The notes below the pieces were generated by a model that did no database searches, had not been told where the DNA came from, and saw only the letters and a list, made by a program, of their open reading frames with translations. The position numbers and the translations under genes are program-made. Of a stretch of DNA of 64,000 nucleotides, positions 3,372 through 64,000 are shown one piece after another (the stretch's first letter is position 1; each line of letters begins with the position of its first letter). Origin of the DNA: Lycium barbarum (Eukaryota > Streptophyta > Magnoliopsida > Solanales > Solanaceae); assembly GCF_019175385.1 (NCBI RefSeq), contig NC_083344.1, positions 10,258,725-10,322,724 on the forward strand. The letters are read 5' to 3'.

Positions 3372-5143
3372 TAAAGGTGGCAACTGGTTGCAACCGGAAC
3401 CGGACCGGTAACCGGTTAGGGAATCGGCCGGTTTCCGGTTAAAAACCGGAACCGCTTAACCGGTTCCGGTTTACCGGTTTGAAATCCCAAACCGGAACGG
3501 TCCAGTTCAAAGTGGTTAAAACTTTTTTTTTTAATTTTTTGTATTATATATATTATAGTATTTATTAGTATATTGTAGGTATATTTACATATGTTATACA
3601 AGTTTATAATTAAAGTTTAAATATTTACTGACTAACAGGCTAACAGCAAGTCAGCAATACAGAATAGTGCTTTTCGTATACATATATATGTATAACTTAT
3701 ATATACTTATATATATGTATAACTTAATATATATACTATATATACTTATATAAGTATATATATACTTATATATATGTATAACTTAATATATATATATACT
3801 ATATATACTTATATATATGTACTATATACTATATATACTTATATATATGTATATTAAGTTATACATATATATACTATATAGACTTATATACTATATATAC
3901 TAACTTAATATATATACTATATATGTATATAAGTATATATATACTTATATACTATATATACTATATACTATATATACTTATATATATGTATAACTTAATA
4001 TATATACTATATATACTATATATACTATATACTATATATACTTATATATATGTATATATGTATAACTTAATATATATACTATATATACTTATATACTATA
4101 TATACTATATATACTTATATATATGTATAACTTAATATATTTACTATATATACTTATATACTATATATACTATATACTATATATACTTATATATATGTAT
4201 AACTTAATATATTTACTATATATACTTATATATATGTATAACTTAATATATTTACTATATATACTTATATACTATATATACTATATACTATATATACTTA
4301 TATATATGTATAACTTAATATATTTACTATATATACTTATATACTATATATACTTAATATATATACTATATAAATTATATATACTTATATACTATATATA
4401 CTTATATATATGTATAACTTAATATACATCTATATTTACCTATATACTATATATACTTATACACTATATATACTTATATACTATATATGCTATATATACT
4501 TATATACTATATATACTTATATATATGTACTATATACTATATATACTTATATATATGTATAACATAATATATATACTATATATACTTATATACTTATATA
4601 CTATATATACTAAATATATATACTTATATACTATATATACTTATATACTATATATACTTATATATATGTATAACTTAATATATATACTATATATACTTAT
4701 ATATATGTACTATATATTATATATGTATATAAGTATATATATACTTATATATATGTATAACTATAAGTATATATATACTTTATATACTTATATATATGTA
4801 CTATATATTTATACTATAAGTATATATAAGTATATATATACTTATATATATGTATAACTATAAGTACTATATATACTTTATATACTATATATACTATATA
4901 TACTATATATACTTATATATATATATATATGTATATGTATATAAGTATATATATATATATACTCTTTTTTTTTTTTTTTAATTTCACCGGTTAAACCGGT
5001 TTAACCGGTCCGGTTCCGGTTTAAAAAATATTGGAACCGGACCGGTAATTTTTAAATGGTTAACCGGAACCGGTTCTACCGGTTCCGATTTAACCGGTCC
5101 GGTTACCGGTTTTAACCGGTTAAACCGAACCGGTTAACAGGTT
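3372..5143. mobile_element. non-autonomous hAT-like element with CCGGTT subterminal arrays
   Basis: Both ends (about 3385-3530 and 4983-5143) are dense arrays of CCGGTT/AACCGG in mirror orientation, surrounding a TA-rich core. The left end reads TAAAGGTGGCAACTGG, like other plant hAT ends (AGGGGTGGCAA). The flanks share TAATCCTAGG (3362-3371 and 5144-5153), which contains an 8-bp duplication as expected for hAT. Subterminal hexamer arrays are known transposase-binding sites in the hAT element Ac. No transposase gene is present; reading frames in the core are low-complexity. Confidence 0.7.
3665..4965. repeat. TA-rich satellite-like array
   Basis: About 1.3 kb made almost only of TATATAC/TTATATA variants, with longer units that recur as blocks (TTATATATATGTATAACTTA followed by ACTATATATAC steps). 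G and C are nearly absent except for single spaced bases. It fills the core of the hAT-like element. Apparent open frames rich in Tyr, Ile and Leu are artefacts of the repeat. Confidence 0.9.
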
Positions 5144-7259: not shown

Positions 7260-7879
7260 GTGAAATTAAATATATATGGCAAAATGTACTATTGGTGAAT
7301 TAGCATGATAAAGAACGAAATATTCGGGCTTTTCGTTTGGGGAATACATCAGCCACGTTCTTGGTCTTTGTCATGACCTCCTTTTTTTTTTATTTTAATT
7401 TTGCTAGATGGAGTGAGACCATTCAAGTGATCAGTATTGTTCGCTTTAATTCAACATACATCAATACAATATGTTCGAAATTGTTAATCACAAGACTTAA
7501 TTGTTATATATAATGATTTACACTCACGTTAAATGTATTTTTTTCTCAATCTTGAATTTGTATCTGGTCAGACATTTACACCTTATGTTCTAATTGGATA
7601 TATACACGTTCACATTGCATATTATCAGACTTATTTCAACTCTAATTCAGTAGCCTTTTGTAGTAATTGAGTGAATAGAAAGCCAAGTGCCAGAGCAAAA
7701 TCAGAGCTTAATTTCTTGTGAGCAGTAAGTCAATAATTATATGTCATTTTGAAATCTGTGGCTTCTTAAAGCAAGATTACTAGAAATAGCTTCCTCCAAA
7801 TTTAGAACAAATATAACGCTGAGTACAATGATTATATTGTTCTGACTTCTAACAACGACGACTAGTAATGCAATAAACC
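7260..7879. other. intergenic, no gene seen
   Basis: AT-rich DNA; nothing supportable. Confidence 0.45.
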
Positions 7880-12089: not shown

Positions 12090-14215
12090 ATGGAAGAAAT
12101 TGATTCTTTATGGAGTTACCAAGAGGTGAGTCATTTATTTTCTTGTTTTGCTAGTGTCTCAATTCATTTATTTTCTTGTTTTTGAAGTGTCTCAATTAAT
12201 TTATTTCTTGTTTTGCAAGTGTCTCAATACATTTCTCTTCACAGTTTTAATGAGTCTTATTCATTTTTTAGATTCACTCGACTCTTTGTTAAAATTTTCC
12301 CTCATTGGGTTATTAATGCATCATTTACTTCCGGAAATAAGTTTTTAATGAATCTTTTTCCTTCAACAAGTTTTCATTGTGTTCAATTCATACTTCTCTT
12401 CAATGTGTCACTTCATATTCTCTGCAAGAGTCCTACCTTTACTCTGTTTTTCTATTTAAAGGGTCTTTAATGGAGTATGTATTTACTGAATGGCATTAGA
12501 TTGGCAACACTGAATTTTGTAAAAGTAAATGATGTTGAGTTCTCTTTTTGAGAGTCTTATAATATTGGATTGAGACGGGTTTACATAGAACTATTTGGAT
12601 GCGAGAATTCATACATCAGACTTCAATTTGTTTGGATTGAGACGTAGTAATTGGCTGTGTTGCTCGGACTCTTTAAAAGTATTGCTAGGTGCGTGTTGGC
12701 CTCTCCAAAATAAGTGCAAGTTTGGGGAATAGACACGAATGGAAACTATTTTGGAGAGTCCGAACAATCTAGTTAATTATTATTGTTATTGTAGGCTTAG
12801 TGGCTCACTACAAGCTTTTGTTGGGTAAAAATGGTGCAGTCTCATTTTCTTCTAGTTGAGAACATGCTTCCGTTAAGGACTTTCAAGAGTAATAGTAGAA
12901 TTATATTAGTGTCAAAGAGTTGTTTTCAGTGAATTTCAAGAATTCATCATTCAGGGCCCAACGCACTATGATATTCTTAAATACAGGTATCCAAGGGTAA
13001 ATCATGGTTTATATTTACTGTATCTCAATTTATGTGGCACCGTTTGAATTTAGAGAGTTAATCACTTTTTTTTTTAACCACGATCATATGCCTTCTAAAT
13101 ATATTGCGGCTTATAGTACTCTTTGTATAGTTTCCAAATATGTCCTATAATGGGCCCTCTCTATGACTTTGCTGTTTCTCCCAACTTTGAATAACTTATT
13201 CATGTTCTAATAGTTTTTAAAAAGATAGTTGCATTAAAAATTCTGTTACTTAGTCATTATGTTAGGATATTTTCATGAGTGTTCACATGGCTAAAGACTC
13301 ATGTTTTTTTTTCTGAAATGAGTTATATTTTTTAATGTATTTTTTTTCCTCTGACTAGATTTTTGATAAATTTTGCAGACTATGGATGAAATGAGACAGA
13401 AGCTTCAATACACTAGTCTTGAACTTGAAAGACTGAATATGGAAGCAAGTGAAGAAAAGAGGAAGAACAATCAATTAATCCAACTCATAAAGATGGCTTA
13501 TCAAGAAAGAGATGAAGCAAGAGATCACCTTCAGAAACTACTCAACAAAATTAATCAGTCTCAAATCCACGTCGTTGATAGTCCTCTTGGTAAGGCGCCA
13601 AAAGCAAATTCAAGCACGATTGAGTCGAACAGCCTTAGTGAAACATACAATTATCATTCACATAATTCATCATCACCGGTCGAGTCCTTTTTGGATGTTG
13701 TCTCATCCCCTGACCTTTCCAATGGCATCAACGTGGCTGAATCAAATGCATTGGGATTCGTGAAACAGCCCCTCGTGAACAATAACATTATTCCGGTTTC
13801 ATATGCTGTCGTCCCTCAAGAAGTACAAAGTGTTGATCAAGCCTCATTGGTTATCGACAGTCTTGTCAAGGGAAAGACATTGCCTCAACAAGGCAAATTT
13901 CTGCAAGCTGTTCTCGAAGCGGGCCCACTTTTGCAGACACTACTTGTAGCAGGCCCGCTTCCAAGATGGCGTAATCCGCCTCAGTTTAAGCCGTTACATA
14001 TTCCGCCGGTTTCAATTAAAGGTTGTGAAGGTGGCATAGTAACTCAAAATACTGCTCCAAATTCTAGCCATTTTGTGAACTGTCAACCTTATTTTGAGAT
14101 GTCTTGTGCATCATCCCAAATGATATCACCTTATTTAGGATATCAGAGGTTAGTATCTGCTGGTGCAAATTGTAACAATTTTGTCCACCTAGACAAGAGA
14201 CAAAGGCTGCAGTGA
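12090..14215 (+). CDS. DUF1635-family protein, two exons, 290 aa
   Basis: Join 12090-12125 and 13379-14215. Exon 1 encodes only MEEIDSLWSYQE and ends at a GTGAGT donor. Exon 2 follows TTTTGCAG and continues in phase 0 with TMDEMRQKLQ. Residues 1-65 form a charged helix or coiled coil (ELERLNMEASEEKRKN, then MAYQERDEARDHLQKL), characteristic of the plant DUF1635 family. A second family-like block lies at about residues 180-215 (GKTLPQQGKFLQAV, then AGPLLQTLL and AGPLPRWRNPP). The middle is Ser/Asn-rich. The TGA stop is at 14213. There is no signal peptide or membrane segment. The family is plant-specific and its biochemical role is not established; no function is assigned. The start codon is supported by the upstream TATA box, CT-rich leader and family-like N-terminus. 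Nothing looks broken. Confidence 0.88.
12659..12768. mobile_element. short palindromic MITE in the intron
   Basis: The ends GTTGCTCGGACTCTTTAAAA and TTTTGGAGAGTCCGAACAAT are inverted. The middle has the paired CCTCCAAAA/TTTTGGAG motifs of a small MITE family I know as abundant in Solanaceae. It is 110 bp; no target duplication was resolved. Confidence 0.65.
13018..13100. mobile_element. Stowaway-like MITE, one end only
   Basis: ATCTCAATTTATGTGGCACC followed by GTTTGAATTTAGAGAGTTAATC matches the left end of the Stowaway-type family at 10500. The matching right end is not seen, so it is a truncated copy within the intron. Confidence 0.5.
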
Positions 14216-30256: not shown

Positions 30257-30884
30257 GTACCCTCATGACTTTGATTAGTGTTTTGAGATTCAATTTGGTG
30301 TTTTCTATCTTAGAATATTGCCAAGAGATCATGGTTGATTCGGTCTGGCGGGACATTTCTAGAAAATCATATCACATTGAGATTAAAAGATTCACGAGAA
30401 GAGGAAGATCGTTAAGTATTTTCACATTAATTGTGTTCATTGGCCGGTCCTTTATGCTTGTCTTTGAGACAAGAACATAATGAAAAACTCAAATTTAAGA
30501 TAAAAGAGATTGTGAGAGATATGAATGTGATAAATGATCTAGGGTACTGCATACTATAATCTACTCTAAGTTTCATTGATCGAGATGCTATATATTCCTA
30601 ATAGAAGTATAGCAATGAAGCTTTCGAAGTATGCACTGATCACATGGTCTAGTCGTTATGTATGAAAGTTACAGAATAAGAATGAGAATTGGCCCCACTA
30701 TGTGGGAATAGGGTACTGCATACTATAATCTACTCTAAGTTTCATTGATCGAGATGCTATATATTCCTAATAGAAGTATAGCAATGAAGCTTTCGAAGTA
30801 TGCACTGATCACACGGTCTAGTCGTTATGTATGAAAGTTACAGAATAAGAATTAGAATTGGCCCCACTATGTGGGAATAGGAGA
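30257..30884 (+). other. copia 3' untranslated region and polypurine tract
   Basis: Non-coding DNA ending in GGGAATAGGAGA (30873-30884), a purine run directly before the LTR, as expected of a polypurine tract. It contains the tandem duplication at 30542-30879. Confidence 0.55.
30542..30879. repeat. 169-bp tandem duplication
   Basis: 30542-30710 and 30711-30879 both start GGGTACTGCATACTATAATC and end ACTATGTGGGAATA. Two differences were seen (CACATGG/CACACGG and GAATGAGAA/GAATTAGAA). The repeat lies just before the polypurine tract. Confidence 0.93.
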
Positions 30885-31994: not shown

Positions 31995-32547
31995 TGTCAC
32001 GTTTCGAACCATGGTCTGGGCATAACATGACACTTGGTGCCTGACTATATATAACCGAGGAAACCACATGGCTGGCTGCATCAACATGAGGCATGGACTT
32101 ATGCGGAGTGTAATCTAAACATGCATGGCTTGTGTAAACATGGCATCCAATAATCATAAGTCTGAAAATAATAACACATCATGAATGCGGAATTAGTATG
32201 AAAATATAATAAGTAATGAGCCATCATTGGCTATACGACTCTGAACATCTGACATAACATAACTGACTAGTCTAGTCTATGAAACCTCTGACATGAATCA
32301 GATTGCTAAACTGTTTACAGGGACAAGGCTACCGGCATACCTTAACTGCATACAACAACAACAACATACCCAGTATAATCCAACAAGTGGGTCTGTGGCT
32401 CACCCATAACTGTATAACTGACAATAAATAAATAAATAAGGATAAAACCCCGAACGAGATGGGGCTCACCAATAGCTGATACGAGCAAAGCCCTAACAAG
32501 CTGATCCGTCGTCTTGTAAATCTGCATCGTGAAATGCAAGCCCCTCA
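31995..32547 (-). mobile_element. truncated Tekay/Del-like LTR
   Basis: TGTCACGTTTCGAACCATGG and the following blocks (ATAACTGACTAGTCTA, TGGGGCTCACCAATAGCTGATACG) match the inverted 3' half of the LTR at 55511-57357. The sequence stops near 32547, so only the 3' part remains, cut off or replaced by the neighbouring Tat-type LTR. Confidence 0.7.
32344..32397 (-). mobile_element. 5'-truncated Au-like SINE
   Basis: CAACAACAACATACCCAGTA followed by TAATCCAACAAGTGGG is the inverse of the 3' end typical of the Au SINE family (CCCACTTGTGGGATTATACT, then GGGTATGTTGTTGTTG). It lies within the LTR fragment, in a spot where the related LTR copies have no such sequence. Confidence 0.65.
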
Positions 32548-33158
32548 AAATCAATTTACCAATTAAATCCCTTTAAAGTACGTCCATATACGCATAATGA
32601 CCATTAATTGCGATTATAATCTAAATTAACATTTAATAAGCAATTGACTATTTCAAATATTGCCTTAATTACATAATAGTTAATTTGGTTATTTCAATTA
32701 TAAACACAATTAATTACATAATTAAACGTAGCTAATCAATTGTAACCATTTTAAAGGATAATTACAATTAAAATCAAATTTGTGCATAATTAAAGGTGAA
32801 ATTAATTATTTTACTTAATCGATTAAACTTCTTGTTTTAAACAGAGTGAGATAATGTCATATATATATTTCAGAAATTTATAAATTAGCTCAAATAATTA
32901 ATTTAATAATTATTTTCACTATTTAAAAATCTTTAAAAATCATATAAATATCTTTAACAATTATGTAAATTATGCAAAAAATTTAAATGAGTTATAATAA
33001 TATATACTAAGATGTTTTGCCAAATGAAATGGCAAAATGTCACCGGAATAATTTATAAATCATTTTGTTTTCCCAGAAATGCATATTTCACTTCGTTTGT
33101 ATACAAGAAGTAAAACCAATTAAGTAGAATTATTGGAGGCCAAAATTAGGTGCCAACA
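32548..33158 (-). mobile_element. partial 3' LTR of a Tat-type gypsy element
   Basis: Read on the minus strand from 33158 it starts TGTTGGCACCTAATTTTGGC, right after the purine-rich GAAGGGGCAGC. AT-rich sequence follows until it meets the truncated LTR at about 32547. The downstream end is missing. It does not obviously match the LTR at 47254-48770. Confidence 0.5.
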
Positions 33159-48839: not shown

Positions 48840-51800
48840 TGCTATGGTTGTGGCCAGCAGGGCCATTTTCAGAGAGATTGTCCGTCAGCTAGATAAGGTA
48901 CCTGGGTTAATGTGGCCCAGTCCACAAATTCAGCAGCTCCTCGTAATTCTCAAGCCCAACAAGGGAGTGAAGACGTGAAGTACGGCAATACGGGCTGTGG
49001 TCAGAACCGTTTGTATGCGCTAGCAGGTCGTCAAGATACAGAGGCACGTGTAGATGTTGTCACAGGTACACTAACAGTTTTCATTTTTGACGTCTATGCC
49101 CTTATTGACCCAGGATCCACCTTATCTTATGTGACCCCATTTGTTGCTAAGAAATTTAGGATTGAACCAAAAAAACTTGCATGAATCCTTTGAGGTGTCC
49201 ACCCCAGTTGGTGAATCAGTTACAGCTAGACGTATATATAGGGGTTGCCCTGTTTTAGTCTATCACCGCAGAACTATAGCCGACTTAGTAGAGTTGGAGA
49301 TGGTAGACTTTGATGTAGTCATGGGTATGGATTGGTTCTCTTCATGTTATGCCACAGTAGGCTGTAGAACCAAAATAGTGAGATTTGATTTTCCTAATGA
49401 ACCACTCATATAGTGGAAAGACAATTCAATAGTACCCAGGGGTAGGTTTATTTCCTATCTAACAGCCAGAAAGATGATTTCCATGGGGTATATTTATCAC
49501 TTAGTTCGAGTTAGGGACACAGATGCCCAGAATCTAGCCCTCCAGTCTGTACCAATCATTAATGAGCTTCCAGAGGTCTTTCCAGAAGATCCTTTCGGAG
49601 TCCCTCCTGACAGGGAGATTGACTTTGGAATTGATCTACTTCCTGACACTCAAATGATATCCATTCCGCCATACAGAATGGCTCCAGCAGAGTTAAAAGC
49701 CTAGTTAAAACATCTCCTTGATAAAGGATTTATTACGCCTTGTGTTTCACCTTGGGGTGCGCCAGTCTTGTTTGTCCGAAAGAAAAATGGCTCCTTATGC
49801 ATGTGCATTGACTACTACCAGTTGAACAAAGTCACCATTAAAAACAAGTATCCTCTCCCCACAATAGATGGCTTATTTGACCAACTTCTGGGTGTCCAGT
49901 GTTATTTAAAGATTGACCTCAAATCAGGTTACCATCATATAAAGGTTAAGGAAGTTGATATTAGACCGCTTTCAAAACCCGTTATGGCCACTTTGAATTT
50001 CTTGTTATGTCTTTTGGGTTGACAAATGCGTCAGCTGCTTTCATGGACCTTATGAATAGAGTCTTCAAGCCTTATCTTGATTTATTCATCATTGTCTGCA
50101 TTGATTATATTTTGGTGTATTCCCGTAGTAAGGCGCAGAACATCTCAGAATAGTGCTGCAGACACTTCAGGACCGTGAGCTTTATGCTAAATTCTCAAAG
50201 TGTGAATTTTGTCTTAAGTCAGTGGCATTTTTAGGCCATGTAATTTCGGTTGAAGGTGTGAAAGTTGATTCTCAGAAGATAGATGCCGTAAAAAAATTGG
50301 CCGAGACTCACTTCAGTTTTTGATATAAGAAGTTTCTTGGGTCTGGTAGGCTATTATAGACGTTTCGTAGAGGGATTTTCCTCTAATTCTGCTCTGTTGA
50401 CTAAGTAGACTCAAAAAAAGTTTATGTTTCAGTGGTCAGATGCATCTGAGCAAAGCTTTGAAGCGTTGAAGAAGAGGTTGACTTCTGCTCCAGTTTTGAC
50501 GTTGCCAGAGGGAACCGAAGGGTTCATAGTTTATTGTGCTGGTTCGGAAATTGGTCTCGGATATGTCTTAATGCAGCATGGTAAGGTGTAAGCTTGTGAA
50601 TCTCGTCAGCTTAAGACTCATGAAAAGAATTATCCGACTCGTGATCTAGATTTGGCAGTCGTGGTTTTTACACTTAAGATATGGCGTCATTATTTGTATA
50701 GAGTGCATGTTGATATTTTCACTGATTATAAAAGCATGCAATATATCTTCAAGCAAAGGGAGCTGAATCTTAGGCAGAGAAGATGGCTTGAATTGCTTAA
50801 GGACTATGATGTGGATATTCTCTATCATCTAGGGAAAGCGAATGTGGTAGCTGATGCTCTTAGTCAGTGTTCCATGGGAATTTTAGCTCGTGTTGAGGCG
50901 GATAAAAGAACTATAACCAAGGAAGTTCACCGTTTAGCTAATCTAGGAGTTCAATTCTTGGACTCCGAAGATGGTGGTGTGGTTGATCAGAACATAACTC
51001 ATTCCTCCTTAGTGGTTGAAGTTAAAGAGAAGCAGTTTAGTGATCCCTACTTGTTACAACTGAAAGAGGGGATTCAAAAGCATAAGACAACGACTTTTGA
51101 ACAAGGGGGAGATGATGATACCTTGAGGTACCGACGTAGATTATGTGTTCTAGATGTAGGTGGGCTCAGAGAGCGAATTATGTCAGAAGCTCAGAATTTC
51201 AGGTATTCATTCATCCAGGTTCCACTAAGATGTATCATGATCTTGAAGAGATCTATTGTGGAACGATATGAAAAACAATATGGCAGATTTTGTGGGTAAA
51301 TGTCCTAATTGTCAGCAAGTGAAGGCCGAACACCAGAGGCCTAGTAATTTGGCCCAGAATATTGATATTCCTGTTTAGAAATGGGAGATGATAAACATGG
51401 ACTTCATAATTAGTCTACTTGGTTCATCCCATAGACATGACTTGATATGGGAGATTGTGGACCGACTTACTAAGTCAGCACACTTCTTGCTAGTTAAGAC
51501 CATCGATTCAACAGAAAATTATGCTAAGTTGTATCTTCGTGAGATTGTCAGATTGCATGAGACCTCATTGTCTATTATTTCAGATCGTGGTGCCCAGTTC
51601 ACAACGAACTTCAAGAAATCCTTTTAGAAAGGATTGGGTACTAAGGTAAACCTCAGCATAACTTTCCACCCTCATTCAGACGGCCAGGCAAAGCGTACCA
51701 TTCATAATCTTCAGGACATGTTGAGAGCATGCGTCCTAGATTTTAAAGGTAATTAGAATGATCACTTGCCTTTCATTGAGTTTGCTTATAATAACAGTTA

Positions 51801-52113
51801 TCATGCTAGTATCAAGATTGCACCGTTTGAAGCTTTGTATGGGCGAAGGTGTACATCACCTATTGGTTGGTTTGAAGTTGGTGAAGCAAAATTGCTAGGA
51901 CCAAATTTGGTCTATCAGTTTATGGAGAAATTCAAGTTAATTCAGGAGCGTTTGAAAATGGCTCAGAGTCGCCAGAAGTCCTGTACAGATGTGAGGCGAA
52001 GAGACTTAGAGTTTCAAGTTGATGATTGGGTATTCCTTAAAGTCTCACCCATGAAGGGTATTATGAGATTTGGAAAGAAAGGGAAGCTTATTCCCTGATG
52101 TATTGGACCTTAT
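48840..52113 (+). pseudogene. Tekay/Del-like gypsy gag-pol remnant, main block
   Basis: In order: a CCHC zinc knuckle (CYGCGQQGHFQRDCPS, 48840-48887), protease (YALIDPGSTLSYVTPFVA, 49,100), RT ([39 protein letters not shown], broken after 50,022, with FLGLVGYYRRFVEGFS at 50,330), RNase H (50652-50880, [16 protein letters not shown]), integrase (PNCQQVKAEHQRP, IVDRLTKSAHF, IISDRGAQFTTN, HPHSDGQAKRTIH, NNSYHASIKIAPFEALYGR). Many in-frame TAG and TAA stops and frameshifts. The catalytic Glu of integrase (usual GQAERT) reads Lys. The element is cut at its 5' side near 48,840 and by a solo LTR at 52114, continuing at 54934. Confidence 0.93.
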
Positions 52114-52924
52114 TGTCACGCCCTAAAACTCACCCTGGACGTAACCGACATCCGACGTCATGAACAACATCGGAAGAACCTAAATGACACAATAATAATA
52201 CTTGAACCCCCTAGGTTCAATACTCGCCTCCAACAGTTTATAAAATAAATGTAACATCAAGGTCCTTTTTAATACTCTTTCCTTATTAAATTAAACTAAG
52301 TTATAAGTAACGGCATATATAAGGACCATAATTAAGGAATAAAATCAGCGGAAGTCTAATATAAGTAAATAGTCATAAACGTAGCAACACCCATTGAGTC
52401 ATATGAGACTTTGACAATCTACCCACAATTCTGACAACTATCTATGGAGCTTCTAAGAGACACAACAATCATCTAACTTCGGGACGCAGCTCGAAAATCT
52501 AGAATAATAAATGAAACAGGAAGTGTCCCACGAACAAGGATGTGGGCTCACCAAATCAACAACAGCAGCAAGTTCTCCTAAGCGTCGAGGGTATCACGAA
52601 CCTGCTCTTCTCCGTTACCTAACATACCATAAAAAACAACAATGGTATGCCTGAGTACTTTCGTACTCAGTGAGTGCCTCGGGGACAACAAGTAATATAA
52701 AAATAAAATATAATAATACATAAAGAAATCAGTTCTGGAAAGATAGTATAAAAACTGTCATTCCACTTTATGATTCTTAATATCATTTGTTAAACAGTTT
52801 ATAAAGCCATTTCAAAATCCCAGTTTCAATTATGCTTTAAATCGATTAGGCATAAATACCAGTTCCATAATAAATATGGATATCAAAATCGCCCATATAG
52901 GCCCAACTCAATATCAACAACACA

Positions 52925-53162
52925 AAGCAATACACCGGAATATGGATTCACGGTGGCTACTCTTCCTCCCGAATAGCAAGGCACACTGCGCAATACACTG
53001 GAATATGGATTCACGGTGGCTACTATTCCTCCCGAATAGCAAGGAAATTAATACACCACAGGTAGCAAACCCGGAAGTGGCCACTCTTCCCCCCGAATGG
53101 CAAGGCAATTAATACACTAGGATCCATAGTGGCTACTCTTCCTCCCGAATAGCAAGGCAAAC
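52925..53162. repeat. ~65-bp tandem repeat in the solo LTR
   Basis: Four imperfect units containing GGTGGCTACTCTTCCTCCCG followed by AATAGCAAGGC. Confidence 0.85.
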
Positions 53163-53605
53163 ACAACAACAAGGTCCATGGCATAGAAGCCGATTCATAA
53201 TTTATCTCAAAGTAGTCACACCATCAATAACGTTAAAGTTCATTATGCCATATCGAAAGATTAAGTCATTCCAGACAATGTTTTGAAAACGTATAACTCC
53301 TTTACAAAAGATTTTCATGTCTCAATTCATCAATAAGAATGTCATTACCAACTCTTAACCATAATTATTTAGCATCTCTCATAGAGGAAAACATTCATAA
53401 TATCTTATACATATATAGGGTTTGTTACAATCTAGGTTTAATGTGGGTTTGTCCCCTCACACACATTAACCACCATTTAGACATGAATTAAGGTTCAAGA
53501 AACATGAAAAAAATTACTTTTCCTTTCATTCATTAAAGAATCTTGAATAAAATTTATACTTCCAACAATAGGTTCAAAAGTGATTTTCATTCAAAATAAG
53601 TTTCC

Positions 53606-53960
53606 AAAAGAGAGACATACGAATCATCTTTATAGTAAAAAATGATTTTAAAAAGAGACCTACAAATCATCCGTATAGTCAAAAATGATTTTTAAAAGAG
53701 ACATACAAATCATCCTTATAGTCAAAAATGATTTTTAAAAGAGACATACAAATCATCCTTATAGTCAACAATGATTTTTAAAAGAGACATACAAATTACC
53801 TTCATAGTCAAAGAGTATGTTCAAAAGAGACATACAAATTACCTTCATAGTCAAAGAGTATGTTCAAAAGAGACATACAAATTACCTTCATAGTCAAAGA
53901 GTATGTTCAAAAGAGACATACATCCAAAATAAGGTTTTTAAAAGGGAGACATACCTTAAA
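53606..53960. repeat. 43-bp minisatellite, about eight units
   Basis: Units start GAGACATACAAATCATCCTT or GAGACATACAAATTACCTTC and fall into two sub-types arranged in separate blocks. The same array, base for base in the stretch compared, is inverted at about 63,295-63,649. Confidence 0.9.
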
Positions 53961-54933
53961 TCCCGTTAAAATATTCCAAACTTAAGCTTCATGCTTCAAA
54001 GAATCATTCTACATCTAATTGAGGTTTGTATGACCAATAAACTATAAATATTCACCAAATTCGCAGCTACTGTTCATAGCTTAAAACGCACAGTTACAGG
54101 CCTCGAAATCCGATCTTCACTATTCACATTTAAGACCTATATGTTGGGAAAACTCAGTTCAAATTTGGGCTCAATCCAATGGTTAGATAAGCGGGAAGCG
54201 TCAAATTTAATATGACTGGTCGGAGGAAATTCTACAGCAACAATACTAGGGTTTTGTTTTTAATAAAGTGCATCTAAATCAATCCTATTTCATGATTCTA
54301 CCAAATATCCATAAAAGTGTGAGGGTGTTACCTTTTTGAAGAAATCCCAAAGCTTCGTCTCATATTTTACCTTAGAATGAAGTTTCCACAATCTATCGAT
54401 TTCATGTAATGATTTGGTGTTAATCTAGTGATTTGTTAAGGTAATTAACTTAGGGATTTGAGTAAAAACTCACCTTAGAGAGAGGATATATGGCTCTGGT
54501 GGAAAAACCCTCTCCTTGGACTTTTTTTTTTGGGTTGTATTTATAGGTTTATAAAGGCTTGGGCTTTAAAACCTAATCCTACAAGAATCAGGATTTCCAT
54601 TTTACACAACTTCAGTAAATCAGTCATAACTTTTTACTCACACGTCTGTTTGGGCTGCATAATATATTTTTGAAAAGGTATTTTAATTCCCTACAACTTA
54701 TATGTTTTGAGTTTTTCCAAATGTCAAACTAAAGTACCCGAAACTGGACATAACGGGAAATTCTCTCAAACTTGACGAATTTAAAGATTTTTAAGGAACT
54801 TCCTTATCTCATTTGACCCCAAAAAGATTATTTAACACTATTATCCATCCCAAAGGGATCCAAAACGTTAAAATGACATCTAAACCCTAATTATTTCACA
54901 ATGACACCTAACTCGGATTTACGGGATGTTACA

Positions 54934-55205
54934 CTTATAGAATCCTGCGAAGGGTTGGTCTAGTAGCTTATGAGCTTGAATTACCACAAGAGTTGGTTGT
55001 TGTTCATCTAGTATTCCATGTGTCTCTGTTGAGGAAGTGTGTGGGAGACCAGTCGTTGGTTGTTCCTGCTGATACTATAACGATTAAGGATGGTTTGACC
55101 TATGAAGAGATCCCCGTAGCAATCCTTGATCGTCAGGTTTGTAAGTTGAGAACTAAAGAGGTTTCCTCAATATAGGTTTTATAGAGGAGTCAGAAAGTTG
55201 AAGTG
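54934..55205 (+). pseudogene. gypsy pol C-terminal block with chromodomain-like end
   Basis: Continuation of the pol after the solo LTR: LAYELELPQELVVVHLVFHV, SLLRKCVGDQSLVVP, TYEEIPVAILDRQVCKLRTK, then a stop and EVATIEAEEDIKSRNPHLFE in a shifted frame to about 55,260. This is the integrase-linked chromodomain region of Tekay/Del elements. It has an inverted twin at 62050-62321. Confidence 0.85.
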
Positions 55206-55497
55206 GCTACAATAGAAGCCGAAGAAGACATAAAATCCAGAAATCCCCATTTGTTTGAAGAGCAAGCAGAGAACGCTCAAGGTAACCCTTCCATAGTCTA
55301 TGTCATGTCTCATGTTTCATGCTCATGTCATGTATCCAGTGCCCATGTTCCATGTCTTAGTAATCATGTTTCCATGTAGCCATGTCATGTTAATTCAGTC
55401 TCCATGTTTCATGTCATGTTTCCTTCACGTTCATGTATTCAAGCCATGTCTAGTCCCAATCTTAACCATGACCCATCATTCGAGGACGAATGATCCC

Positions 55498-55507
55498 AAG
55501 GGGGAGA
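55498..55507 (+). other. polypurine tract
   Basis: AAGGGGGAGA directly before the LTR, following the CGAGGACGAATGATCCC sequence I associate with this point in Tekay/Del elements. Mirror copy at 61748-61757. Confidence 0.8.
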
Positions 55508-55510
55508 TAT

Positions 55511-57357
55511 TATAATACCTCGTACCTTTAAACAAAGCCGCGTCTATGACTCAGGGATACCGGAAGCCAAAAAGGGGAGTTTAAGTCGCAAACCAGACTC
55601 AGTTCTACAGGTGACATTCGACGGCCAGAGGGACGGACCGTCAGAATGCACCGTCCCTAGAACCTCATTTTGTAAACTCTCTGGATTTTCTCAAGCTGTT
55701 GACAGTACGGTTGAATCGACAGACCGTCAATGATGCACCATCAAAAGTCTGACTCAGACCGTCAAAGCAACTCGACGGACCATCGAATTTCGTCGGACCG
55801 TCAAAGTGTATCGTCAATCTTCCCCGACAGCAAACAGTATAAATACGACACTTCATTCTAGAAAATCAGTTTTCACGAATCCCAAGCCCTAGCACGAAGG
55901 TTTTCTTTTCCCAACCATATTCTACATCAAGGTAAGTCCTTTCTGCGTATTTTTAGGCAATTCTATCATTGTATAATCAATTCCTAAGCGAGCACCACTA
56001 TTCTTAACATAGGGTTTTCAAACAAACCCATCTTAGTGTTCAAAGTTCAAGCTTTTGGAATTCTATTGCAAGTTTGGAGCAATAACAGGTATGTAGGGTT
56101 TCTATCTACGTGTGGGAACATATTTGTTCTTCCCCACGCCATGTTCTTCCACGAAAGTATGAAATTACACCCAAAACTAGGGTTCTAGCTATGTTCATGA
56201 TAACCCTAAGCACATTTACTATGATATAACATGATTATACATATAATTCGTTATTGTTTTCTTAATACTCCATTTTGGTTATTGAGAATCCGTCCGTAAT
56301 TCATGAAAACCCATGCTTTGATTCCATGGGTTCTTAAATACAAGTTATGAACTATTATGCTTAATTTCATGAAAATCCTACATGTATACACGTTTTCATG
56401 AAAGTATATTATATAACTGTATTCATGTTATAATACAAGTCATTTTATGAAATTCATGAGCTTCTTAGCCAACTATATCCTGTCCACATTTTTGGGAGTT
56501 GCACAGTTACCAAGAAGGGTTTATACCTGAAACTACGTTTGCTAGCGTAGGATAAGGATCGCTCCGCTCAGTTAGGACGACTCCTTCATATTGTCCCCAT
56601 TGAGGGATTCAGATCCATTCATGTCATGTTCATGTCTTGTATCCCAGCAAGGTACAAGATGGCTTAGTTGATCGGGCAGGGATCAGACGCCACGTACTAA
56701 TGTGGTGGTTTCATGTCGGTTACATTAATTCTCTCCCACAAATATTTTTACTCATGTTATCTATATATATCTATATATATATATTACAGTTTCAGTATCA
56801 GTTCTTATCATGTTATTTCCTATGCCATGTTTATTTCATTCAGTTGCTTTACATACCAGTACATTCAATGTACTGATGTCCCTTTTCTATTGCCCGTCGG
56901 CCTGTATTTAACGATGCAGGTACGGACTTACAGGACGATGCATCTGCTTAGTAAGACATTAAACGTATCAGCTGTTGGTGAGCCCCATATTCTTCGGGGT
57001 CTTGTCATTATTTACTTTTATGATAGTTATGCAGTTAAGGTATGCTGGGGGCCTTGTCCTAGCAATCATTTTTAGCAGTTCAAACTCATTTAGAGGTTTC
57101 ATAGACTAGTCAGTTATGTTATGTCAGATATTCAGAGTCATTATTATTATGTTTATTCAGACTATTCCGCATTATGCTATTATAATATTTTCAGACTTAC
57201 GATTTATAGTCCCACGCTTTACTTAAATTGTGCATGTTCATAGTTTATTCCGCATCAGTTCATGCCCTTGAGTTAGCAAGTCATGTGGTTCACTCGGTCA
57301 CATGCAGTTAGGCATCAAGTGTCGTGTTACGCCCAGGCCATGGTTTGGGGCGTGACA
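55511..57357 (+). mobile_element. 3' LTR of the Tekay/Del-like element
   Basis: It starts TATAATACCTCGTACC after the polypurine tract and ends GGTTTGGGGCGTGACA. It is related to the solo LTR at 23559-26082 and the fragment at 31995-32547. Like the former it starts TA rather than TG. About 1.85 kb. Open frames inside (for example 55665-55856 and 56637-57075) are not genes. The mirror copy is at 59898-61744. Confidence 0.85.
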
Positions 57358-58612
57358 TACTTGGGAACAAATAACCAAACAAATAAGTCCCTTAAGGTCT
57401 AACAACTCTCATATACCAGAATTAAACCCATAAATACAAGGCATGGATTCATATCTTAAATCAGAAATCCCTTCTTAATCTTGGACTAATATCATTTAAA
57501 CATTACTAATTCAAATGACATACCAACAATATCTATAAGCTAACCCCTATTCATCAAAAAAAGGCTTAAAATAGTTTAAAGTCTAAAACATGACATAACA
57601 CCCTAAGAATGCTTTTATCACAATCATTCTTTAACGTAACAACATAGATAACATAAACTAAGCATCAAAGCCTAAAACAGGAACTAGACTAAACAAATCT
57701 AAGCATTTAAGCACTTAATAAAACACAACTCCTATCTAAAGCAAACATAACAAAACACATAGGTGTGGACAAAAATAAGCAAACTAACACATAATTAAAT
57801 AAATGAAAAAAGGATAGGAATTTTACCTTTTTTCCAAGCAGCCTTTTATCGAGAATGGAATTGAACCTTGCCTCCTTCCACACGATCTCAGCCACAAAAC
57901 CCAAAGAAAAAACAATTAAAAAATTTAACTCAAACACTTGAAACTTAAAGGTCTGCAAAATGCTTAACCCTAGGTTGTGGAATGTTTGCTCAAAAGCCTA
58001 AAATTTTAAGGATTTCAAGACCTATGCTCATTCAAGCCTGTTTTTTGAAGTGAAATAAGGTATCCTTTATATAGGAGCATAAAACCCCTAAAAATTGGTT
58101 CCCATCCGATGTGGGAGAAGCGATTTTGTCAAGGATTCATCTTGAATCCATGACATTTGCTACAAACCAATAAAAATTGAGTTTTCAAGTCGGCTAAGGG
58201 ACAAAAGCCATTAATTTGTTGAGGAAATGAAAGGGGAAAAAGGCAAAGGCTTACAATGCATTTGAGGTTGAACAAGGGTGAGATTGGGCGAGAATTGGTA
58301 GAGCAATTAATGCTCTTGTCATTCTTGGCTCTGCTCTACCGTACGAGGACCGCCGTGGGCCCTCGACTTTGCTAATTCCGGCCATGTGACGTGAGGATTC
58401 GAAGAGAGATAAAGAGACAAGGGTTTGAACCCTTGTCTCAATTTGGGACAAATGAAATGAAGGGGTCCTTTGGATGCGTTTAAATGCAGACCTAGGCCGG
58501 GTTAGCCCATCTTGAGCTGGACTCGGCCAGTTTTAAAAAGAGAAAGGGAGGGCCCAACATTTAACATATATACACATGTATACAATTATGTATATATGTG
58601 TATATATATGTA
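57358..58612. other. flank of the gypsy LTR, left palindrome arm
   Basis: Non-repetitive-looking DNA between the LTR and the palindrome centre, identical to 58643-59897 inverted where compared. On the minus strand it has TATATAAA (58066-58073) and CCCACATCGGATGGGAACC, a motif common in plant LTR or promoter sequences. A minus-strand frame at 57707-57958 has no recognised domain. Confidence 0.55.
58066..58073 (-). promoter_or_regulatory. possible TATA box, left arm
   Basis: TATATAAA on the minus strand, in CTCCTATATAAAGGATACC. It directs transcription away from the palindrome centre. Mirror of 59182-59189. No downstream gene was identified. Confidence 0.4.
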
Positions 58613-58642
58613 CATTTAAATTTTTCGTTTTTGGCCCCTATA
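58613..58642. other. 30-bp spacer at the palindrome centre
   Basis: The only non-mirrored stretch: CATTTAAATTTTTCG then TTTTTGGCCCCTATA. It is flanked on both sides by AT-rich TATATATG/CATATATA steps that could themselves form small hairpins. Confidence 0.9.
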
Positions 58643-59897
58643 TACATATATATACACATATATACATAATTGTATACATGTGTATATATGTTAAATGTTG
58701 GGCCCTCCCTTTCTCTTTTTAAAACTGGCCGAGTCCAGCTCAAGATGGGCTAACCCGGCCTAGGTCTGCATTTAAACGCATCCAAAGGACCCCTTCATTT
58801 CATTTGTCCCAAATTGAGACAAGGGTTCAAACCCTTGTCTCTTTATCTCTCTTCGAATCCTCACGTCACATGGCCGGAATTAGCAAAGTCGAGGGCCCAC
58901 GGCGGTCCTCGTACGGTAGAGCAGAGCCAAGAATGACAAGAGCATTAATTGCTCTACCAATTCTCGCCCAATCTCACCCTTGTTCAACCTCAAATGCATT
59001 GTAAGCCTTTGCCTTTTTCCCCTTTCATTTCCTCAACAAATTAATGGCTTTTGTCCCTTAGCCGACTTGAAAACTCAATTTTTATTGGTTTGTAGCAAAT
59101 GTCATGGATTCAAGATGAATCCTTGACAAAATCGCTTCTCCCACATCGGATGGGAACCAATTTTTAGGGGTTTTATGCTCCTATATAAAGGATACCTTAT
59201 TTCACTTCAAAAAACAGGCTTGAATGAGCATAGGTCTTGAAATCCTTAAAATTTTAGGCTTTTGAGCAAACATTCCACAACCTAGGGTTAAGCATTTTGC
59301 AGACCTTTAAGTTTCAAGTGTTTGAGTTAAATTTTTTAATTGTTTTTTCTTTGGGTTTTGTGGCTGAGATCGTGTGGAAGGAGGCAAGGTTCAATTCCAT
59401 TCTCGATAAAAGGCTGCTTGGAAAAAAGGTAAAATTCCTATCCTTTTTTCATTTATTTAATTATGTGTTAGTTTGCTTATTTTTGTCCACACCTATGTGT
59501 TTTGTTATGTTTGCTTTAGATAGGAGTTGTGTTTTATTAAGTGCTTAAATGCTTAGATTTGTTTAGTCTAGTTCCTGTTTTAGGCTTTGATGCTTAGTTT
59601 ATGTTATCTATGTTGTTACGTTAAAGAATGATTGTGATAAAAGCATTCTTAGGGTGTTATGTCATGTTTTAGACTTTAAACTATTTTAAGCCTTTTTTTG
59701 ATGAATAGGTGTTAGCTTATAGATATTGTTGGTATGTCATTTGAATTAGTAATGTTTAAATGATATTAGTCCAAGATTAAGAAGGGATTTCTGATTTAAG
59801 ATATGAATCCATGCCTTGTATTTATGGGTTTAATTCTGGTATATGAGAGTTGTTAGACCTTAAGGGACTTATTTGTTTGGTTATTTGTTCCCAAGTA
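58643..59897. other. flank of the gypsy LTR, right palindrome arm
   Basis: Mirror of 57358-58612. Read on the plus strand it has the TATA-like box at 59182 and a T-rich stretch, then meets the inverted LTR at 59898. Confidence 0.6.
59182..59189 (+). promoter_or_regulatory. possible TATA box, right arm
   Basis: TATATAAA in CTCCTATATAAAGGATACC, mirror of 58066-58073, directed away from the centre. Confidence 0.4.
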
Positions 59898-61744
59898 TGT
59901 CACGCCCCAAACCATGGCCTGGGCGTAACACGACACTTGATGCCTAACTGCATGTGACCGAGTGAACCACATGACTTGCTAACTCAAGGGCATGAACTGA
60001 TGCGGAATAAACTATGAACATGCACAATTTAAGTAAAGCGTGGGACTATAAATCGTAAGTCTGAAAATATTATAATATCATAATGCAGAATAGTCTGAAT
60101 AAACATAATAATAATGACTCTGAATATCTGACATAACATAACTGACTAGTCTATGAAACCTCTAAATGAGTTTGAACTGCTAAAAATGATTGCTAGGACA
60201 AGGCCCCCAGCATACCTTAACTGCATAACTATCATAAAAGTAAATAATGACAAGACCCCGAAGAATATGGGGCTCACCAACAGCTGATACGTGTAATGTC
60301 TTACTAAGCAGATGCATCGTCCTGTAAGTCCGTACCTGCATCGTTAAATACAGGCCGACGGGCAATAGAAAAGGGACATCAGTACATTGAATGTACTGGT
60401 ATGTAAAGCAACTGAATGAAATAAACATGGCATAGGAAATAACATGATAAGAACTGATACTGAAACTGTAATATATATATATAGATATATATAGATAACA
60501 TGAGTAAAAATATTTGTGGGAGAGAATTAATGTAACCGACATGAAACCACCACATTAGTACGTGGCGTCTGATCCCTGCCCGATCAACTAAGCCATCTTG
60601 TACCTTGCTGGGATACAAGACATGAACATGACATGAATGGATCTGAATCCCTCAATGGGGACAATATGAAGGAGTCGTCCTAACTGAGCGGAGCGATCCT
60701 TATCCTACGCTAGCAAACGTAGTTTCAGGTATAAACCCTTCTTGGTAACTGTGCAACTCCCAAAAATGTGGACAGGATATAGTTGGCTAAGAAGCTCATG
60801 AATTTCATAAAATGACTTGTATTATAACATGAATACAGTTATATAATATACTTTCATGAAAACGTGTATACATGTAGGATTTTCATGAAATTAAGCATAA
60901 TAGTTCATAACTTGTATTTAAGAACCCATGGAATCAAAGCATGGGTTTTCATGAATTACGGACGGATTCTCAATAACCAAAATGGAGTATTAAGAAAACA
61001 ATAACGAATTATATGTATAATCATGTTATATCATAGTAAATGTGCTTAGGATTATCATGAACATAGCTAGAACCCTAGTTTTGGGTGTAATTTCATACTT
61101 TCGTGGAAGAACATGGCGTGGGGAAGAACAAATATGTTCCCACACGTAGATAGAAACCCTACATACCTGTTATTGCTCCAAACTTGCAATAGAATTCCAA
61201 AAGCTTGAACTTTGAACACTAAGATGGGTTTGTTTGAAAACCCTATGTTAAGAATAGTGGTGCTCGCTTAGGAATTGATTATACAATGATAGAATTGCCT
61301 AAAAATACGCAGAAAGGACTTACCTTGATGTAGAATATGGTTGGGAAAAGAAAACCTTCGTGCTAGGGCTTGGGATTCGTGAAAACTGATTTTCTAGAAT
61401 GAAGTGTCGTATTTATACTGTTTGCTGTCGGGGAAGATTGACGATACACTTTGACGGTCCGACGAAATTCGATGGTCCGTCGAGTTGCTTTGACGGTCTG
61501 AGTCAGACTTTTGATGGTGCATCATTGACGGTCTGTCGATTCAACCGTACTGTCAACAGCTTGAGAAAATCCAGAGAGTTTACAAAATGAGGTTCTAGGG
61601 ACGGTGCATTCTGACGGTCCGTCCCTCTGGCCGTCGAATGTCACCTGTAGAACTGAGTCTGGTTTGCGACTTAAACTCCCCTTTTTGGCTTCCGGTATCC
61701 CTGAGTCATAGACGCGGCTTTGTTTAAAGGTACGAGGTATTATA
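59898..61744 (-). mobile_element. inverted copy of the gypsy 3' LTR
   Basis: Starts TGTCACGCCCCAAACC on the plus strand and ends GGTACGAGGTATTATA. Mirror of 55511-57357, with four of the five noted mismatches between the arms. Confidence 0.88.
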
Positions 61745-61747
61745 ATA

Positions 61748-61757
61748 TCTCCCCCTT
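61748..61757 (-). other. polypurine tract, mirror copy
   Basis: TCTCCCCCTT on the plus strand, the inverse of the tract at 55498-55507. Confidence 0.75.
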
Positions 61758-62049
61758 GGGATCATTCGTCCTCGAATGATGGGTCATGGTTAAGATTGGG
61801 ACTAGACATGGCTTGAATACATGAACGTGAAGGAAACATGACATGAAACATGGAGACTGAATTAACATGACATGGCTACATGGAAACATGATTACTAAGA
61901 CATGGAACATGGGCACTGGATACATGACATGAGCATGAAACATGAGACATGACATAGACTATGGAAGGGTTACCTTGAGCGTTCTCTGCTTGCTCTTCAA
62001 ACAAATGGGGATTTCTGGATTTTATGTCTTCTTCGGCTTCTATTGTAGC

Positions 62050-62321
62050 CACTTCAACTTTCTGACTCCTCTATAAAACCTATATTGAGGAAACCTCTTT
62101 AGTTCTCAACTTGCAAACCTGACGATCAAGGATTGCTACGGGGATCTCTTCATAGGTCAAACCATCCTTAATCGTTATAGTATCAGCAGGAACAACCAAC
62201 GACTGGTCTCCCACACACTTCCTCAACAGAGACACATGGAATACTAGATGAACAACAACCAACTCTTGTGGTAATTCAAGCTCATAAGCTACTAGACCAA
62301 CCCTTCGCAGGATTCTATAAG
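62050..62321 (-). pseudogene. inverted copy of the gypsy pol C-terminal block
   Basis: Mirror of 54934-55205. The translated chromodomain-like part is identical; one silent difference (62113) changes TGT to TGC in a Cys codon. Confidence 0.85.
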
Positions 62322-64000
62322 TGTAACATCCCGTAAATCCGAGTTAGGTGTCATTGTGAAATAATTAGGGTTTAGATGTCATTTTAACGTTTTGGATCCC
62401 TTTGGGATGGATAATAGTGTTAAATAATCTTTTTGGGGTCAAATGAGATAAGGAAGTTCCTTAAAAATCTTTAAATTCGTCAAGTTTGAGAGAATTTCCC
62501 GTTATGTCCAGTTTCGGGTACTTTAGTTTGACATTTGGAAAAACTCAAAACATATAAGTTGTAGGGAATTAAAATACCTTTTCAAAAATATATTATGCAG
62601 CCCAAACAGACGTGTGAGTAAAAAGTTATGACTGATTTACTGAAGTTGTGTAAAATGGAAATCCTGATTCTTGTAGGATTAGGTTTTAAAGCCCAAGCCT
62701 TTATAAACCTATAAATACAACCCAAAAAAAAAAGTCCAAGGAGAGGGTTTTTCCACCAGAGCCATATATCCTCTCTCTAAGGTGAGTTTTTACTCAAATC
62801 CCTAAGTTAATTACCTTAACAAATCACTAGATTAACACCAAATCATTACATGAAATCGATAGATTGTGGAAACTTCATTCTAAGGTAAAATATGAGACGA
62901 AGCTTTGGGATTTCTTCAAAAAGGTAACACCCTCACACTTTTATGGATATTTGGTAGAATCATGAAATAGGATTGATTTAGATGCACTTTATTAAAAACA
63001 AAACCCTAGTATTGTTGCTGTAGAATTTCCTCCGACCAGTCATATTAAATTTGACGCTTCCCGCTTATCTAACCATTGGATTGAGCCCAAATTTGAACTG
63101 AGTTTTCCCAACATATAGGTCTTAAATGTGAATAGTGAAGATCGGATTTCGAGGCCTGTAACTGTGCGTTTTAAGCTATGAACAGTAGCTGCGAATTTGG
63201 TGAATATTTATAGTTTATTGGTCATACAAACCTCAATTAGATGTAGAATGATTCTTTGAAGCATGAAGCTTAAGTTTGGAATATTTTAACGGGATTTAAG
63301 GTATGTCTCCCTTTTAAAAACCTTATTTTGGATGTATGTCTCTTTTGAACATACTCTTTGACTATGAAGGTAATTTGTATGTCTCTTTTGAACATACTCT
63401 TTGACTATGAAGGTAATTTGTATGTCTCTTTTGAACATACTCTTTGACTATGAAGGTAATTTGTATGTCTCTTTTAAAAATCATTGTTGACTATAAGGAT
63501 GATTTGTATGTCTCTTTTAAAAATCATTTTTGACTATAAGGATGATTTGTATGTCTCTTTTAAAAATCATTTTTGACTATACGGATGATTTGTAGGTCTC
63601 TTTTTAAAATCATTTTTTACTATAAAGATGATTCGTATGTCTCTCTTTTGGAAACTTATTTTGAATGAAAATCACTTTTGAACCTATTGTTGGAAGTATA
63701 AATTTTATTCAAGATTCTTTAATGAATGAAAGGAAAAGTAATTTTTTTCATGTTTCTTGAACCTTAATTCATGTCTAAATGGTGGTTAATGTGTGTGAGG
63801 GGACAAACCCACATTAAACCTAGATTGTAACAAACCCTATATATGTATAAGATATTATGAATGTTTTCCTCTATGAGAGATGCTAAATAATTATGGTTAA
63901 GAGTTGGTAATGACATTCTTATTGATGAATTGAGACATGAAAATCTTTTGTAAAGGAGTTATACGTTTTCAAAACATTGTCTGGAATGACTTAATCTTTC
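62322..64000 (+). mobile_element. inverted copy of the solo LTR, cut by the window end
   Basis: It starts TGTAACATCCCGTAAATCC, and ATAAG (62317-62321) is the mirrored target duplication. It contains CTATAAATACAA at about 62,709 and the mirrored 43-bp minisatellite at about 63,295-63,649. The remainder lies beyond the window. Confidence 0.88.

Follow-up and report, generated by a model that had tools for sequence, protein, structure and literature searches.

The right-hand end of the analysed window, a 64,000-bp stretch of Lycium barbarum DNA (C8:10,258,725-10,322,724), carries a 13-kb palindrome that runs past the window end and looks like a real, fairly recent rearrangement rather than an assembly error. 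We consider that it probably formed as a genuine in-place inverted duplication with a linked deletion of 505 bp, most likely through inter-strand template switching during replication. Because relatives of the repeat persist in the genome, both junctions of a multi-kb palindrome with a short spacer can here be read directly, along with its local hairpin, the segment that was lost and the order before the rearrangement.

A sequence-only reading of the window had described a near-perfect inverted duplication with a 30-bp spacer, and this holds: 53,255-58,612 is the reverse complement of 58,643-64,000 apart from 6 mismatches over 5,358 positions, and there are no indels. The same reading had put the arms at 5.36 kb at least, continuing beyond the window, and once the 60 kb that follow on the contig are included (124 kb examined in all) they measure 6,589 bp. 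The left limit it gave, 53,255, is merely the mirror image of the window end, and the true left end lies at 52,024. The full palindrome spans 52,024-65,231 (13,208 bp), with 8 mismatches and no indels between the arms. It consists of the left arm (52,024-58,612, plus strand), continuous with the left flank, the spacer (58,613-58,642, minus strand), made of an extra C at 58,613 and 29 bp, and the right arm, an inverted copy on the minus strand that extends from 58,643 to 64,000 and on to 65,231 (C8:10,323,955), 1,231 bp past the window, where native downstream sequence (X) follows. Both outer ends and the centre are sharp, and the mirror stops inside a 133.5-Mb contig, not at a contig end. A match of this kind cannot have arisen by chance. 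Within the 124 kb, and among the best 40 candidates of a genome search with the palindrome centre, there are two copies of the arm and no third. The genome searches covered the assembly of 1,669,677,424 bases in 164 contigs and scored the best 40 candidates each; further copies may exist. When 171,000 bases, too few to gauge genome-wide rarity, were scanned for inverted matches crossing their own centre (400 bp or longer, with an identity of 90% or more), one other was obtained, a small inverted repeat centred on itself at 1,352-1,986 (644 bp aligned at 92%), which may be a fold-back or MITE-type element.

The arms are built of repeat sequence. From outside to inside they contain a gypsy integrase-like part, a nested insertion, the rest of the gypsy element with its 3' LTR, and a low-copy sequence (Q). 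The gypsy element is decayed, its Ty3/gypsy integrase-like frame being broken by many stops, and an RNase H match lies at 50,592-51,296 in the left flank. Since the integrase-like frame passes uninterrupted from the left flank through 52,024, it is the left arm that represents the original; the outer end of the right arm is the same point of the frame, there adjoining other sequence, X. The nested, solo-LTR-like insertion (52,114-54,933, unstranded) is bordered by CTTAT on both sides, and its portion at 52,500-53,670 has many relatives at 90-96%. As it is mirrored in the right arm, the insertion is older than the duplication. The remainder of the gypsy element (54,936-57,357, plus strand) includes an SH3_Tf2-1 match at 54,936-55,160 and the 3' LTR from about 55,515. 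Q follows at 57,358-58,612 (plus strand), with relatives on C7 (90%) and C6 (86%). A search of the 124 kb recovered neither the gypsy 5' LTR nor the initial 30 bp of Q, so that part of the history of the left side is older and unexplained. An ARAGORN scan returned no tRNA gene.

The order of the locus before the duplication is preserved in an unrearranged relative on C7, with support from partial copies. Using the palindrome centre as query, we found that the relatives on C7 and C6 match the spacer jointly with the right arm, while their match to the left arm ends at 58,612 (C7) and 58,615 (C6). The spacer thus goes with the right arm, its orientation being inverted with respect to the left one, and in the relatives the 29-bp segment directly follows the arm in the opposite orientation. 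On C7 the older order is found in one piece, running from the arm end through the 29 bp and a further 505 bp into X. In coordinates of the fetched C7 piece, 7285 is the last position of the arm and 7314 that of the 29-bp segment, and X starts at 7820; of the 534 bp that separate arm end and X, 29 bp are kept, inverted, at the palindrome centre and 505 bp are lost. The C7 match to X covers 155 bp at 92% and stops where Q stops. These relatives are just 86-92% alike, C7 alone covers the entire older order, and X is matched to Q over about 150 bp. The C6 relative runs from the arm end through both the 29 bp and the missing segment, and other sequence interrupts it no more than about 20 bp from the X start. 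This break in the C6 copy of Q (about C6:91,081,113), so close to where X starts at the palindrome, reflects either chance or a shared weak spot. A second partial copy of Q in the same window (32,547-33,158, plus strand) covers 460 bp of the lost 505-bp segment as well as the first stretch of X. Because C7 has this order, and C6 and the copy at 32,547-33,158 have overlapping parts of it, the right flank of the palindrome is native to the locus, being its downstream sequence with 505 bp removed. Judged by this comparison, the palindrome evidently carries the 29 bp inverted, lacks the 505 bp and has a reverse copy of the arm placed before its native downstream sequence, for a net gain of 6,589 + 29 + 1 - 534 = 6,085 bp.

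Both junctions show short matches. At the outer junction ATC is common to both sides, and the match between X and C7 continues for 3 bases of the right arm, as far as 65,229. ATC is also present in C6, and the copy at 32.5 kb has ATA, so that one of the three relatives lacks ATC. The inner junction has a TA match (at most 2 bp) and one extra C. Junction matches of 2-3 bp support any mechanism only feebly. Five nucleotides before the inner junction lies an AT-rich hairpin (58,566-58,607, plus strand) whose stem measures 19 bp and whose loop has 4 nt. Its predicted stability has a z of -4.27, with 0 of 200 shuffles as stable. The same hairpin is predicted in the unrearranged C7 relative (z -3.63, again 0 of 200 shuffles), and for this reason it most likely predates the duplication event.

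The arms have aged as separate copies. All eight differences between them are substitutions, and comparison with relatives assigned a direction to six, four of them new in the left arm and two in the right. New in the left arm are those at 52,148 (all four relatives carry the other base), 52,999 (five of six by best match per locus; 11 C, 2 T and one gap over all 14 rows), 56,962 (seven of nine) and 57,545 (eight of eight rows, representing just two independent places). In the right arm the new bases correspond to 56,204 (six of eight, one relative siding with the right arm) and 57,168 (seven of eight, one gap). Position 57,177 is mixed in the relatives (3 A, 3 C, 1 T and one gap) and was assigned no direction; 55,142 has no relative for comparison and was left unpolarised. 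C-to-T or G-to-A accounts for four of the six polarised changes, a pattern usual in methylated plant repeats. As evidenced by derived substitutions in both arms, these are two DNA copies that aged separately, which argues against a fold-back read. At a substitution rate of 6.5e-9 (PMC8175696), taken as per site per year, 8 differences over 6,589 bp correspond to about 93,000 years, with a Poisson range of 40,000-184,000; the true age would be higher if conversion had acted between the arms, and lower if methylated sites mutated fast.

Together, the hairpin in the C7 relative, a right flank that is native apart from the missing 505 bp and the private derived substitutions of each arm support the earlier suggestion of a structural event, by fold-back or template switching at an AT-rich hairpin. 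The reverse-copied arm is inserted between the arm end and native X, consistent with two jumps, from one locus and back to it. In the mechanism that we propose, the growing strand would arrive at the arm end beside the hairpin (point 1) and change templates, landing on the opposite one 29 bp further on (point 2). It would then copy the 29 bp in reverse, followed by 6,589 bp of arm (point 3), before a second jump, at a 3-bp match, whose landing site in the native sequence lies 534 bp beyond point 1 (point 4). By our own assignment the four-point order is 3-1-2-4, or 1-3-4-2 when read from the other direction. As point 2 lies ahead of point 1 in both readings, the argument put forward in PMC7954356 excludes an intra-strand switch. 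The landing point ahead of the departure point is seen in the inverted 29-bp segment, for which a later flip is possible: recombination or switching between the arms could turn the spacer round, voiding the orientation argument, and spacer inversion via template switching has been described (PMC8604942). As it stands in the sequence, the spacer orientation appears to disfavour a single-strand snap-back to the same fork and to favour either a switch between strands or a fusion of broken sisters; it supports the inter-strand switch without proving it.

Broken sisters lead to the alternative that deserves the most attention, possible in our view yet rather doubtful. A double-strand break beside the hairpin, followed by fusion of the broken sisters or by fold-back priming, would give a palindromic intermediate, which would break again 6.6 kb away and be rejoined to the distal side of the first break, minus about 505 bp. 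Break repair predicts the same junctions and the same single-copy spacer, and via palindromic sister fusion it yields the same product with either spacer orientation. The one-base insertion at the inner junction suits end joining, and 13 human fold-back junctions with 2-8 bp of microhomology and single-copy spacers have been reported (PMC3907307). This route, however, requires two breaks, and the distal piece must be kept and reattached to the locus it came from. If a simple fold-back had occurred with no dicentric stage, the spacer should be direct, whereas the observed one is inverted, and the human spacers mostly measure a few kb compared with 30 bp here (PMC3907307). Sequence alone cannot separate jumps at a replication fork from break repair; that the jumps occurred by replication, with the hairpin as their trigger, is what we infer.

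It is very unlikely that the second arm stems from a fold-back or chimeric long read or from an assembly mis-join, even though palindromic chimeras do occur among reads, most of all following whole-genome amplification (PMC6218980), and PacBio 20-kb libraries underlie the assembly, if it is that of PMC8175696. A fold-back read would mirror the left flank up to the read end, whereas here the mirror stops at 65,231 and native sequence resumes minus 505 bp; moreover, the arm differences are exclusively substitutions and arose in both arms. A Lycium barbarum assembly from a haploid has been described with 1.67 Gb in 12 chromosomes of 106.53-172.84 Mb (PMC8175696; PMC10912414), obtained from the 20-kb PacBio libraries of a haploid plant by Canu read correction, Flye assembly and polishing with Arrow and Pilon (PMC8175696). 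Two joined haplotypes were also considered as a source of the arms and are unlikely if the sequenced plant was this haploid. Finally, the arms do consist of retrotransposon sequence, as a mobile element with very long inverted ends would, and we nevertheless give this origin almost no credence. With its left end inside the decayed Ty3/gypsy integrase frame, the palindrome unit is not a mobile element: it starts within that frame, includes a nested LTR insertion and ends inside Q. Its outer ends carry no target duplication, and no second copy of the whole centre was present among the best 40 candidates scored in each of two genome searches.

Several described systems come close to the palindrome. 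Four-point template switches of great apes (PMC7954356) likewise involve two jumps and a reverse-copied stretch; their points can be placed in order along the sequence as it was before, and part of the cases start at a hairpin-prone site. Those events are short-range, over tens to hundreds of bases, whereas 6.6 kb were copied back here, and the orders 3-1-2-4 and 1-3-4-2 do not occur in the main text of that study. The nearest model of an inter-strand switch is yeast ODIRA (PMC10766183), which generates inverted triplications with a preferred spacing of 40-80 bp and repeats of 2-14 bp; the present locus, with two copies in the 124 kb and among the candidates of the search with the centre, is a duplication, with a spacing of about 30 bp and a repeat of at most 2 bp plus an extra C. 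Human fold-back inverted duplications (PMC3907307) share the inverted copies around a single-copy spacer, here the 29 bp present once, and the short microhomology. They adjoin terminal deletions or translocations, unlike the present palindrome, which is interstitial: distal to the inverted copy 505 bp are lost and native sequence then resumes, with no terminal deletion. Gene-scale palindromes are found in other organisms, for example 11 in a springtail (PMC5490193). A literature search at the level of titles and abstract beginnings returned no recognisable report of this locus, and the main text of PMC8175696 contains neither 'palindrom' nor 'inverted'.

The locus is a concrete example, from a plant, of inverted duplication in two jumps, a kind of event already known. 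Polarising the differences between arms and finding an unrearranged relative offers a way to separate real palindromes from artefacts of fold-back reads. For users of the assembly, ambiguous read mapping is to be expected over 52,024-65,231. A function can be imagined, with little likelihood on our analysis: the palindrome might be a natural silencing locus, supplying small RNAs that target the gypsy families from which its pieces derive, in the manner proposed for Mu killer. The 3' LTR of the left arm would then drive transcription through the centre, and the resulting hairpin RNA, its stem exceeding 1.2 kb, would reach into gypsy LTR sequence. Mu killer of maize is likewise a partial inverted duplication of a transposon, potentially read into a long hairpin RNA; it silences its target (PMC3440606), an effect that is hypothetical for the present palindrome.

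Elsewhere in the window, a TA-rich tandem array of about 1.3 kb occupies 3,677-4,963 with periods of 2, 111 and 137. The minus strand at 5,718-5,770 matches the MIR1886 microRNA precursor family with 67.2 bits against a gathering score of 62. An open frame of 281 aa at 13,370-14,215 has a strong DUF1635 match (E 6.9e-46) and is probably an exon of a host gene. At 30,540-30,881 a 169-bp unit is present in two tandem copies with 98% matches, a recent local duplication.
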